Origin: an uncultured Ruminococcus sp.
Lineage (GTDB): Bacteria; Bacillota; Clostridia; Oscillospirales; Acutalibacteraceae
Assembly (NCBI GenBank): GCA_902762615.1
Contig: CACWOX010000012.1
Coordinates: forward strand, 1-64,000
Direction: 5' to 3'
Length of the DNA: 64,000 nt
Shown: piece after piece, positions 9,717 through 17,932 of the stretch
Layout: every line of letters begins with the position of its first letter
Position numbering within the stretch: the stretch's first letter is position 1
Position numbers and translations under genes: made by a program
The notes under the pieces: generated by a model
What the model was told of the DNA's origin: nothing
Databases searched by the model: none
The model's input: the letters and a program-made list of their open reading frames with translations, nothing else

Positions 9717-9772
9717 CAATTCCGTTATAGCGCTGAAATGCGCTTGTTTGAAGAAATGTAACAATTAAACAC

Positions 9773-9839
9773 TTGTAAATCACCGCCGTGTTTGCTATAC
9801 TGAATTAATCAGATAAAAAATCAAGCAGGGCGGTGATTT
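9773..9839 (+). promoter_or_regulatory. Promoter embedded in an inverted repeat
   Basis: TTGTAA (9773-9778) and TATACT (9796-9801) with a 17-base spacer form a promoter for the next gene. An exact 11-bp inverted repeat, AAATCACCGCC at 9777-9787 and its complement at 9829-9839, flanks it. The right arm runs into T's, so RNA coming from the PPK2 gene could fold it as a terminator, while RNA started at this promoter would lack the left arm. The right arm also contains the GGGCGGTGA that precedes the TTG start. Confidence 0.55.
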
Positions 9840-9840
9840 T

Positions 9841-11052
9841 TTGGCGCGTCTGGCAAACCGAAAGAAGTACAAGAAAAAAAGAGAGACATTCATGCAGTTT
9901 TACAACAGGACATGTGACCGGGTTTTCGGCTATGTCTTTGAGCGCTGCCTGAATCATGCCGATACGATGATCGTCTGCCGAGAGGCGTTTATTGACATGT
10001 ACTTTGACATATCCAGCCTGCGCTCGGCTCCCAGTGTGGATTATTGGCAGCGCAAGCAGGTGGACAAGACGCTGCGCTATCTGGTGCGCAAGGACAGACT
10101 CTCCATGATACACGAAAAGACGCTTGCCGATGTTCCCGACAGCATTACGGTCGATGAGAAGGAGGAACTCTGGCGGCGCATAAACCGCACCATCGACATT
10201 GACCCGTGGAGACTGGTGCCTGTTCCGGGCAAATCTTCCATATTCACCGTGATTGCCGATCAGGCGGCTTCCGACATGAGCTACATGAGTATGCTCGATA
10301 TAGCAAAGGCGGCCGGCGTCGTGCTGCTGATCGTTGCGCTGATAGGCGGCGCGGGCTTCGGAGCCTATTATTTTCTGTTTCGCGGCTCGTCAGGCGGCGT
10401 GGAGGCTATGGAGGAGATATTCCTTGATGAACGCAGCTATGACGAATACAACGAAGAATCGCGAGTGCGTGTGACCGATGAGGAAATCAACGCGCTTATC
10501 AAGGAAGCCTTCGACGGTCTCGAGGACGAGGGAGGACTCAGCAGCCATTCGGCAGTCACGCATAATTCCTCCAAGGAGCCGGTCTATACCAAGGACAATG
10601 CGATTAACGACCAGTTGACCACCATTCTCGACGAAATACTCAAGGACGAAATGAGCGACAATGAGCGGCTGTGGGCGATCTATTACTACGTCGGCACGCA
10701 CATGCGCTATGAGAATGTATCCGACAAGAGCGAAGAACAGGTTACTCTGCTGAAATATTATTTCAAGAATCAGACGGGCGACAGCCGGCATTATTCCATG
10801 CTATTCAAATCGCTCTGCAATGCCGCCGGCTACGACTGCGAGGTAATCAAGGGACGATTCGTGCTGAATGCCGACACCGAATTCCGGCGCGATATTCTGC
10901 ACTACTGGAACAGAATGAGGCTCAACGGCATGTATTATTACTACGACTGCGAAGCCGACACCGACGAATTCGGCACGCAGGTGCGCGAATACTACTTTAT
11001 GGCAACCGATGGCAACATCAAATGGTCGGTCTGGAACCGCGACCACCAATGA
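9841..11052 (+). CDS. Membrane protein: sigma-region-2-like N-terminus, TM, transglutaminase-like domain lacking Cys
   Basis: 403 residues from a TTG start (an ATG 51 bases later is the alternative). Residues 15-85 resemble a degenerate ECF sigma region 2: a YNRTCDRVFGYVFERC helix, CREAFIDMYFD where sigma factors have QEVFLRAW, and a terminal ARN-like VDKTLRYLVRK. A transmembrane segment lies near 155-180. Residues 270-395 resemble a transglutaminase core: TGDSRHYSMLFKSLC, then HYWN and DCEAD for His and Asp. The usual Cys is replaced (Ser in GDSRHYS), so peptidase or crosslinking activity is doubtful. Followed by LicD, CDP-glycerol transferase and GT2 genes, suggesting a surface-polymer context. 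Domain calls are inference. Confidence 0.6.
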   Translation: MARLANRKKYKKKRETFMQFYNRTCDRVFGYVFERCLNHADTMIVCREAFIDMYFDISSLRSAPSVDYWQRKQVDKTLRYLVRKDRLSMIHEKTLADVPDSITVDEKEELWRRINRTIDIDPWRLVPVPGKSSIFTVIADQAASDMSYMSMLDIAKAAGVVLLIVALIGGAGFGAYYFLFRGSSGGVEAMEEIFLDERSYDEYNEESRVRVTDEEINALIKEAFDGLEDEGGLSSHSAVTHNSSKEPVYTKDNAINDQLTTILDEILKDEMSDNERLWAIYYYVGTHMRYENVSDKSEEQVTLLKYYFKNQTGDSRHYSMLFKSLCNAAGYDCEVIKGRFVLNADTEFRRDILHYWNRMRLNGMYYYYDCEADTDEFGTQVREYYFMATDGNIKWSVWNRDHQ

Positions 11053-11150
11053 GCGCTCGCTCACATTCGTTCGCTCGCTAAGATAATAGAGAATAACGAA
11101 TAGATAATAGATAATAACGGAGGAAGGGCTTTGCCCTTGGAATGAAGAAA
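11053..11150 (+). repeat. Intergenic repeat copy 1
   Basis: Directly after the stop codon comes GCGCTCGCT-rich sequence, then GCTAAGATAATAG, several AATAACGAATAGATAATAG units, CGGAG, a small hairpin AAGGGCTTTGCCCTT and GGAAT. The same order of parts occurs after the next gene (12004-12085). It looks like a dispersed intergenic repeat, not a gene; a ribosome binding site for the LicD gene is not obvious in it (GGATTTG lies about 10 bases before the ATG). Confidence 0.5.
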
Positions 11151-12003: not shown

Positions 12004-12085
12004 TGCGCTTGCTAAGAGAATAGATAACAGAGAATAACGAATAAATAAATTTCGGAGCGCCTGCGGCGCAGGAATACAGATTTTT
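12004..12085 (+). repeat. Intergenic repeat copy 2
   Basis: Again directly after a stop codon: GCGCTTGCTAAGAGAATAG, AATAACGAATAAATAA, CGGAG, a small hairpin GCGCCTGCGGCGC, and GGAAT. Parts and order match the copy at 11053-11150. Confidence 0.5.
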
Positions 12086-16340: not shown

Positions 16341-17411
16341 TTAAAATTCCCCATCATATTGACCAAACAAACTGTATTTGCTGTATTTATCATAATCTTT
16401 ACATTTGTAGTGATATTTTGTGACATAATTTTCGCAACCAGGAGCTTTTGAAGGATCGTCGAACGTAGAAATATAAGACTTAATCTCATAAATTTTATAA
16501 GTGTCAGGTTTGATTTTTTTTATCCTATTCATAATATATATTTTATAATCATCATCACCAACAGCAGAAAAATAATCGTCTTTATATTTCTCATATTTTT
16601 TCGCATTTTTTTCATCGCCAAACATATCAAAATTAAAGTATCCAAATTCTGCATAATAGGTTGTTTTCAGCTTTTTTTGATTCCAAGGATATTTTGTTGT
16701 ATCGTCATTGAATATTTTTTCGTCATTTTCATCATAAATATATGGCGTGGGAATACGTTCGCCGTTTTCATTATAATATCCACGATCTCCGCCATTCACT
16801 ACATCAAAATAATATCCCATTTCGTCTGAAAATCTGCATGAAAATACAACGTTACCGTTCTTTAATCCGACTAATTGTATAAATGACTCAAAATCAGGCA
16901 TATAATCAATGGTTTCATCATGAGATATTGTGGCGTCTAAATAAATGTTTGCTAACCCAGGAATATTAGGGTTTTCGTTATTTTGTATATATAAATCAGA
17001 TAACTCAAGTTCAAGACACCCTACTTTAACTGAGCTATTCACATTGCCGAGATCAACGTGATCCGCAGTGTAATTTTTATCAGGATGTATTTCAATTGTG
17101 TCCAATTCATAAGAATAAGAACCCACGTATTCTGCAATATACTCCCAAATCTTCTCCGCAGCGCTTGCAACATAGCCGCGCATGGGCGTGACAACAATAA
17201 TAAGCGTAATAATCGCCGCAATCGCAGCCGCACGGACTAAAGTGTTTCTGTGGGCGTTTTTCTTTTGTTCTGCCTTTTCTTTGTTTTCCTGCTCTCTCTG
17301 CGCCATGGCTTCCAGCGTGCGGGCTTTCAGTTCGTCCGAAGCTGTGTCGGCGCGTGTGACGAACGGCTTCTTCTGCCGCGGTGCTGTTTTCAGTGTAAAT
17401 TTTTCTGTCAT
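16341..17411 (-). CDS. Putative anti-sigma factor membrane protein
   Basis: 356 residues. The first 75 residues are polar and Glu/Lys-rich (cytoplasmic), followed by one transmembrane segment near 70-90 (VRAAAIAAIITLIIVV) and a tyrosine/aspartate-rich external domain of about 260 residues. Start codon overlaps the stop of the ECF sigma gene (ATGA type), so the two are translationally coupled. This layout is that of an anti-sigma factor holding the sigma factor at the membrane. The external domain is not recognised; the later part (from 16341 to about 17150) is noticeably more A/T-rich than its neighbours, suggesting a fast-evolving or acquired sensor. Confidence 0.65.
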   Translation of the reverse strand: MTEKFTLKTAPRQKKPFVTRADTASDELKARTLEAMAQREQENKEKAEQKKNAHRNTLVRAAAIAAIITLIIVVTPMRGYVASAAEKIWEYIAEYVGSYSYELDTIEIHPDKNYTADHVDLGNVNSSVKVGCLELELSDLYIQNNENPNIPGLANIYLDATISHDETIDYMPDFESFIQLVGLKNGNVVFSCRFSDEMGYYFDVVNGGDRGYYNENGERIPTPYIYDENDEKIFNDDTTKYPWNQKKLKTTYYAEFGYFNFDMFGDEKNAKKYEKYKDDYFSAVGDDDYKIYIMNRIKKIKPDTYKIYEIKSYISTFDDPSKAPGCENYVTKYHYKCKDYDKYSKYSLFGQYDGEF

Positions 17412-17932
17412 TACTTGCCCTCTCCTTTCGTTACCAGATCCACAAATTGCTGTTTTCCCCTTGCGATCAGACCTTTGACGGCAGCTTCGGTTTTCCCCAT
17501 GATTTTCCCTATCTCTTTGACGGTGTAGCCGCAGTCGTATTGCAGCATCAGCACCGCCTTGTAATCCGGCTTCATCTGACGCATGACCGAGTCGAAATCC
17601 ACCTTGCTGTCCATTACGCTTTCAAACCGTTCGTCCAGCAGCTTCTCGCCCGTGAGCGTCCGCGCCGAATGTTCCCATTCGATCGCTTCGTCCTCCATGT
17701 CGCTGCGTTTGGCGAATTCAAAGCGGCGGTACATGCTGCGCACCACATTCAGCGTCACCTTGATGAACCATGCGTTCGCGTGATCCTCGTCACGGAATCT
17801 CGGCTGTTTGTCTATGTAGCGGATAAATACCTCCTGATACACGTCCTCCGCGTCAGAGGCATTGCTTACCTTTGCTTCCGCCAGCGTCTTGACCAGCTCG
17901 GAATATGTGTTTACTGCTTCCTCGTTTGTCAT
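17411..17932 (-). CDS. ECF-type RNA polymerase sigma factor
   Basis: 173 residues. Region 2 includes DAEDVYQEVFIRYI and AWFIKVTLNVVRSMYRR (promoter melting and -10 binding); region 4 has YKAVLMLQYDCGYTVKEIGKIMGKTEAAVKGLIARGK (-35 binding). A linker of about 40 residues separates them. AAAAGGAGG precedes the ATG, though about 12 bases away. It is followed directly by its putative membrane anti-sigma factor, so the pair probably senses an envelope signal. A short dyad GATGAA-TCG-TTCATC lies just upstream of the start. Confidence 0.92.
   Translation of the reverse strand: MTNEEAVNTYSELVKTLAEAKVSNASDAEDVYQEVFIRYIDKQPRFRDEDHANAWFIKVTLNVVRSMYRRFEFAKRSDMEDEAIEWEHSARTLTGEKLLDERFESVMDSKVDFDSVMRQMKPDYKAVLMLQYDCGYTVKEIGKIMGKTEAAVKGLIARGKQQFVDLVTKGEGK

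Follow-up and report, generated by a model that had tools for sequence, protein, structure and literature searches.

What is the role of a protein that resembles a sigma factor at one end, a transglutaminase without its cysteine at the other, and is held in a membrane in between? This question is raised by a gene in a 64,000 nucleotide stretch of DNA from an uncultured Ruminococcus sp., which as a whole is called the window here. The host is one of the uncultured Clostridia, and rumen samples are the source of most of its relatives.

A sequence-only reading of the gene had proposed a degraded ECF sigma region 2, joined through a transmembrane segment to a transglutaminase-like domain with Ser where Cys should be. 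It also offered two roles: a link from envelope state to transcription, or a scaffold that serves the four surface-glycan genes that follow.

The open reading frame is as that reading had it. It runs from 9841 to 11052 on the forward strand, encodes 403 amino acids, begins with a TTG at 9841 and has a stop codon as its last three bases. A Shine-Dalgarno-like AGGGCGGTGA lies upstream of this TTG, at 9827-9836. All 17 members from the genus can be aligned from residue 1 to the end, and all of them keep MARLANRKKY from residue 1 onwards. Both the start at this TTG and the complete architecture are therefore real. The features are collected in Table 1.

Table 1. Position of each feature of the gene and of its upstream region, in window coordinates.
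Feature	Coordinates	Strand	Basis or remark
Conserved upstream block TAACAATTAAACACTTGTA, overlapping the -35 hexamer	9759..9777	+	nearly invariant in 14 genus members
Predicted sigma-70-type promoter TTGTAA-N17-TATACT, TG before the -10	9773..9801	+	consensus scan
Whole gene: sigma-2-like / TM / Ser-type transglutaminase-fold protein, 403 aa, TTG start	9841..11052	+	
Degenerate ECF sigma region 2 domain, residues 13-95, cytoplasmic (predicted)	9877..10125	+	profile, profile-profile, predicted fold
Region 2.2 positions with Asp...Gln in ECFs; codons 44-47 are Ile-Val-Cys-Arg	9970..9981	+	
Juxtamembrane cytoplasmic segment, residues 96-150, instead of sigma region 4	10126..10290	+	conservation; dN/dS 0.06
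Single transmembrane helix, residues 151-180, N-terminus inside (predicted)	10291..10380	+	hydropathy, charge, model
External linker, residues 181-249, invariant E192 (MEEIFLDE motif)	10381..10587	+	low model confidence
External transglutaminase-fold domain, Ser-type, residues 250-403	10588..11049	+	PF01841; TglA-like fold
Ser315 codon, catalytic Cys position	10783..10785	+	Ser 24/24
His354 codon, catalytic His position	10900..10902	+	24/24
Asp369 codon, catalytic Asp position	10945..10947	+	24/24

When 60 related genomes were searched, all but one of the 17 others in the genus proved to have a near-full-length orthologue (16 of 17, 68-90% identity), and one more orthologue lay in another genus. 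More divergent members come from four other genera of the bacterial family to which the host belongs. An N-terminal profile, run against 398 genomes of that bacterial family, returned 14 true members in five genera. The protein family is small (five genera found) and apparently undescribed so far. Its alignment of 24 sequences is shallow, and the predicted models rest on this same alignment.

Nei-Gojobori estimates on ortholog pairs, where dS is near saturation, put dN/dS at about 0.085 overall. By part the values are about 0.07 for residues 13-95, about 0.06 for residues 96-150, 0.17 for the transmembrane segment, 0.10 for the linker and about 0.11 for residues 250-403. By this measure all domains of the protein are under strong purifying selection. 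Constraint is strongest in the inner domain and the juxtamembrane segment, which argues that they have a function. A frameshifted or decaying pseudogene is ruled out by the 16 intact orthologues together with the low dN/dS.

The proposed transmembrane segment is present as one helix, at about 147-180 by hydropathy and at 151-181 in the model, and it joins the sigma part to the outer domain. It has counterparts in all 24 members, in which the C-terminal flank is strongly net negative and the N-terminal flank mostly positive. The N-terminus is predicted to be inside. The external part is strongly acidic overall.

The inner domain and its kin

The sigma identity of the N-terminus emerged only by NCBIfam, profile-profile and fold comparison. 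Pfam yields chance matches only on this part, with a score below the PF04542 threshold. NCBIfam ECF sigma models are matched by all 18 members scanned, the best at 7.4e-8. Set against 11 ordinary ECFs of related genomes in hhalign, the N-terminal family reaches a P of 97% and an E of 1.1e-10 over 102 columns. The 24-member profile finds sigma-R region 2 (1h3l, 1.5e-4) and SigW (1.6e-4) as its best PDB profile matches, and mycobacterial SigE is also among the first.

In a fold search with the full-length model, the transglutaminase domain filled the results, and the N-terminus was therefore modelled alone. The AlphaFold model of residues 1-155 has a pLDDT of 83.8. Compared by VIA-align, its top 30 rows are all ECF sigma region 2, from Z 8.8 to 5.4, and unrelated folds appear at Z 3.7 and below. 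For example, 9m98_F is matched with Z 8.7 and an rmsd of 1.7 over 71 residues. Foldseek returned no match for this model at E < 0.001. Because the VIA-align Z stays below 9, the fold evidence is used in combination with the sequence evidence.

On the profiles and the model taken together, residues from about 13 to 95 are a sigma region 2 domain. The degraded ECF region 2 of the sequence-only reading is thus supported by NCBIfam, hhalign, PDB profiles and fold alike. Profile support for a sigma-like fold exists, and the model is not an unrelated helical bundle.

It is a peculiar region 2 however. Position 44, in region 2.2, is I, T, L or S, and it is acidic in none of the 24 members. Position 47 is Arg in 21 of them, and position 48 keeps E or D in 23. 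These three positions correspond to D403, Q406 and E407 of E. coli sigma-70, residues that contact core polymerase. In controls, the acidic position is Asp in all 11 ordinary ECFs, and 15 of 15 membrane-fused ECFs have both the Asp and the Gln. The loss of this Asp is therefore specific to the family.

Region 4 is missing as well. A Pfam search found no Sigma70_r4 match in the protein up to E 10; the fused ECF controls match PF08281 with E-values no worse than 1e-14. Between the sigma part and the membrane, the model of residues 1-155 has two separate helices only. This juxtamembrane segment carries a conserved W111 and a DIDPWRLxPxPGKS motif. Since region 4 is absent and no member has kept the core-binding acid of region 2.2, this is not a normal sigma factor, and a functional ECF sigma factor is ruled out. 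Some contact with polymerase or DNA could still occur, because the region 2.2 Glu is mostly kept and the region 2.4 helix is rich in Arg and Lys.

As to where the sigma part came from, 12 of its 14 next best matches outside the family, among the 398 genomes, are proteins that run from sigma2 through sigma4 and a transmembrane segment to an exterior. These relatives are long, and the exterior often consists of LRR_5 repeats. The host's own genome has 24 region-2 domains above the cut-off, only one of which sits in a frame of that size (L160, sigma-TM-LRR_5). Given that its closest relatives are membrane-fused ECFs, the sigma part probably arose from such a protein by loss of region 4.

Membrane-fused ECFs (ECF48/52/53, SCO4117; IutY; locally L160 and L115) likewise have an N-terminal sigma region 2, a transmembrane segment and an exterior in one chain. 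The protein described here differs in having lost region 4 and the core-binding Asp, and in having a Ser-type transglutaminase fold as its exterior. Also unlike them, no anti-sigma or zinc-finger domain was found in the protein. Activation of a membrane-fused ECF by proteolysis has a precedent in IutY/ECF52 (PMC8999054).

The searches also turned up other sigma-related genes. Full ECFs with BspA-type LRR_5 repeats, joined on by a transmembrane segment and a stretch rich in Ser and Thr, are found in the own genome (L160, 365-1873). The same architecture is seen in L115, L118, L119, L125 and L060, and is apparently common in the bacterial family. The own genome further holds a 93-aa region-4-only protein (L159, 763-1044, minus strand), a possible sigma-4 partner. 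It also has an ECF split into a region-2 ORF and a region-4 ORF (L158, 579-857 and 865-1146). These are 7 bases apart and in different frames, which may be a frameshift, an assembly error or a natural two-subunit sigma.

The outer domain and its serine

Transglut_core (PF01841) is matched in Pfam at 1.2e-8, with 35.6 bits against a curated cut-off of 23. In the full-length model, pLDDT is mostly 82-96 over residues 251-403, and S. pyogenes TglA is matched to the outer-domain model with Z 15.9 and an rmsd of 2.3 over 137 residues. The transglutaminase-like nature that had been read from the sequence holds on both counts. TglA (PDB 9crn) shares the fold of the outer domain and its His and Asp positions. 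It has a Cys nucleophile and no sigma domain however, and in the sequence alignment this catalytic Cys stands opposite Ser315.

The earlier claim of Ser for Cys, with the His and Asp kept, was checked by looking for Cys in homologues, and all 24 family members turned out to have Ser. This rules out a chance Cys-to-Ser change in one strain. The Ser, His and Asp are among only 21 invariant columns of the outer domain, in members down to about 27% identity. E371, A372 and D373 are invariant across the 24 members too, while the residues flanking Ser315 are variable.

The seven other Transglut_core domains of the own genome all have Cys. Among 20 further relatives in the bacterial family there are 16 with Cys, 2 with Ser, 1 with Pro and 1 with Ala. 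The Pro or Ala stands at the nucleophile position of the transglutaminase-fold relatives L155 and L154, so Cys has been lost more than once in the bacterial family.

A tree groups the Ser-type domains on a single branch (96/91), separate from the Cys-type domains. Two extra Ser proteins, from genus g139, fall within the family branch, on a long branch of their own. They come without the sigma part, and have a transmembrane segment and choline-binding repeats. Judging by the tree, a single gain of Ser, followed by its retention in two architectures, is the most likely history, and this speaks for a role of Ser315 itself. In g139, L145 283-1812 and L147 325-1812 are membrane-anchored, with choline-binding repeats and a Ser-type domain that contains GTSQHYA.

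Papain-like families with a conserved Ser are known, and a negative charge at the site may allow these to be active; the activity of natural Ser-type papain or transglutaminase folds has been called poorly explored (PMC10318531).

Promoter and neighbouring genes

The -35 core and the -10 of the predicted promoter are conserved in 14 aligned genus members. From 9759 to 9801, TAACAATTAAACACTTGTA and then TTTGnTATACT are nearly invariant in these 14. The copy of TAACAATTAAACACTTGTA at 9759-9777 is the only exact one in the whole genome. The 9759-9801 block may be a dedicated operator. A regulon-wide operator is ruled out by this uniqueness, and the single match with 3 mismatches is at control level.

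Downstream there are three glycan genes and not four: LicD, CDP-glycerol glycerophosphotransferase and GT2. The fourth gene is a seryl-tRNA synthetase. LicD is the next gene in 16 of 16 congeneric loci, and the order PPK2, sigma/transglutaminase gene, LicD is found in most genus loci that are not cut off by the contig end. The two nearest outgroup genera, with one locus in g12 and four in g68, have the gene directly after purL and without adjacent glycan genes, and in g102 and g135 it has other neighbours. Because of the purL neighbour, the glycan association is a genus-level arrangement, and a fixed operon partner of the glycan genes is ruled out. The proposed scaffold for surface-glycan genes is weak on this ground, and also on that of the gene's own conserved predicted promoter.

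There is a faint hint of a link to choline-decorated teichoic acid, as LicD adjoins the gene here and the g139 relatives carry choline-binding repeats. Near the g139 Ser-type genes no LicD was found. No conserved anti-sigma gene adjoins the gene either; its neighbours are PPK2 and LicD, or purL.

The window contains some further items of note. At 16341-17932 on the minus strand, an ECF sigma gene is followed downstream by the gene of a membrane protein (16341-17411) which, by inspection only, resembles an anti-sigma of the DUF4179 type. This putative pair has no match near the orthologues in relatives. Similar AT-rich repeats (GAGAATAACGAATAG...) are present at 11089-11121 and 12030-12044, in the intergenic gaps that flank licD.

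Possible mechanisms and their meaning

The protein is best read as one for transmembrane signalling or tethering, in which a sigma-2 mimic acts as the docking module, and not as a working sigma factor. It would be a single-pass membrane protein with its N-terminus predicted to be inside. The inner domain, probably derived from a membrane-fused ECF and deprived of region 4 and of the polymerase-gripping region 2.2 residue, would bind a sigma-2 partner at the membrane. Most likely this would be an anti-sigma factor, possibly RNA polymerase. The module would not itself start transcription. On the outside, the Ser-type transglutaminase fold would engage a cell-wall component, and this would alter how available the inner module is, or its conformation.

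The link from envelope to transcription machinery that the sequence-only reading had suggested is plausible, because the fusion of sigma-2, transmembrane segment and Cys-less transglutaminase is confirmed. The inner end cannot be a normal sigma, given the missing region 4 and the lost region 2.2 acid.

Sigma mimicry has a precedent in PhyR, the degenerate sigma-like domain of which titrates an anti-sigma (PMC8103513). Both proteins have an ECF-like fold with degenerate polymerase-binding residues, and both are proposed to bind an anti-sigma factor. PhyR however is soluble: it is a response regulator that has a receiver domain, with NepR as its partner. The protein here is membrane-anchored, and Pfam finds no receiver domain in it.

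Other explanations start from the outer domain. It could be catalytically active, with Ser-His-Asp as a hydrolase or acyltransferase for the peptides of peptidoglycan or the decorations of teichoic acid, and with the sigma remnant there only to anchor or localise it. This is somewhat unlikely, but it gains from the three invariant residues, from the separate Ser-type branch, and from the g139 proteins, in which the domain does without the sigma part and is fused to choline-binding wall repeats. The strongly acidic external part also fits with Ser papain-like folds that may act at a negative site. Changing Cys to Ser usually abolishes activity in the transglutaminase fold however, and an enzyme of this kind leaves the strong constraint on the inner domain unexplained. 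Alternatively, the outer domain might be a pseudo-transglutaminase scaffold that binds or activates glycosyl- or phosphocholine-transfer enzymes, such as its LicD neighbours. Here the model is fungal Cyk3, a Cys-less transglutaminase domain that acts on chitin synthase (PMC4758748). Cyk3 has likewise kept the His and Asp, lost the Cys, and is tied to wall polymer synthesis, but it is eukaryotic and cytoplasmic, has an SH3 domain and no sigma domain, and no conserved Ser is reported for it. The constant LicD neighbour within the genus and the choline-binding repeats in g139 suit such a scaffold. It is nevertheless improbable, given the purL loci without glycan genes, the g139 genes without LicD and the gene's own predicted promoter, and it would leave the sigma-2 domain with no role.

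A last explanation concerns the inner domain, which might be released or presented as the sigma-2 subunit of a split sigma of the SigO-RsoA kind, together with a separate sigma-4 protein. In B. subtilis, a sigma-2-only protein with a sigma-4-only partner is known (PMC8103513), and in the own genome there is at least L159 as a lone region-4 protein, and L158 as a split sigma. RsoA also has sigma region 2 without region 4; it is however small, soluble and encoded with its sigma-4 partner. With the core-binding acidic residue lost in every member, and with no adjacent sigma-4-only partner gene in the window, in the outgroup loci or in any other locus examined, a split sigma is likewise improbable.

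The preferred reading is that of a sigma-2 docking module inside and a wall-engaging Ser-type transglutaminase fold outside, coupled through one transmembrane segment. Confidence in the architecture is high: the domain identities, residue losses, conserved Ser-His-Asp, purifying selection and kinship with fused ECFs are all computational results. The mechanism is held tentatively, and could nearly as well be right as wrong; its topology, partner, ligand and direction of signalling are what we infer. A stronger version, which is unlikely, would make this a new class of transmembrane regulator. In it, an external Ser-His-Asp enzyme would sense the wall or act on it, and exert direct control over a sigma-2 decoy tethered to the membrane, so that a single protein would link the state of the wall to sigma-factor availability.

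Each half of the protein has precedents, in PhyR and the membrane-fused ECFs on the one hand, and in Cyk3 and the Ser papain-like families on the other. No description of a sigma-2/transglutaminase fusion was found in the open-licence literature searched.

The gene represents the exaptation of a sigma factor domain, as a module for protein interaction that is bound to the membrane, next to a transglutaminase-fold subfamily that has kept Ser-His-Asp for Cys-His-Asp over long divergence. It makes two things testable: whether natural Ser-type papain/transglutaminase folds are active enzymes, and whether sigma factors are regulated by degenerate sigma domains in systems other than PhyR. The cell wall may here be coupled to gene regulation in a new way. 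If true, this would be a wall-to-transcription route in the poorly understood rumen Clostridia.
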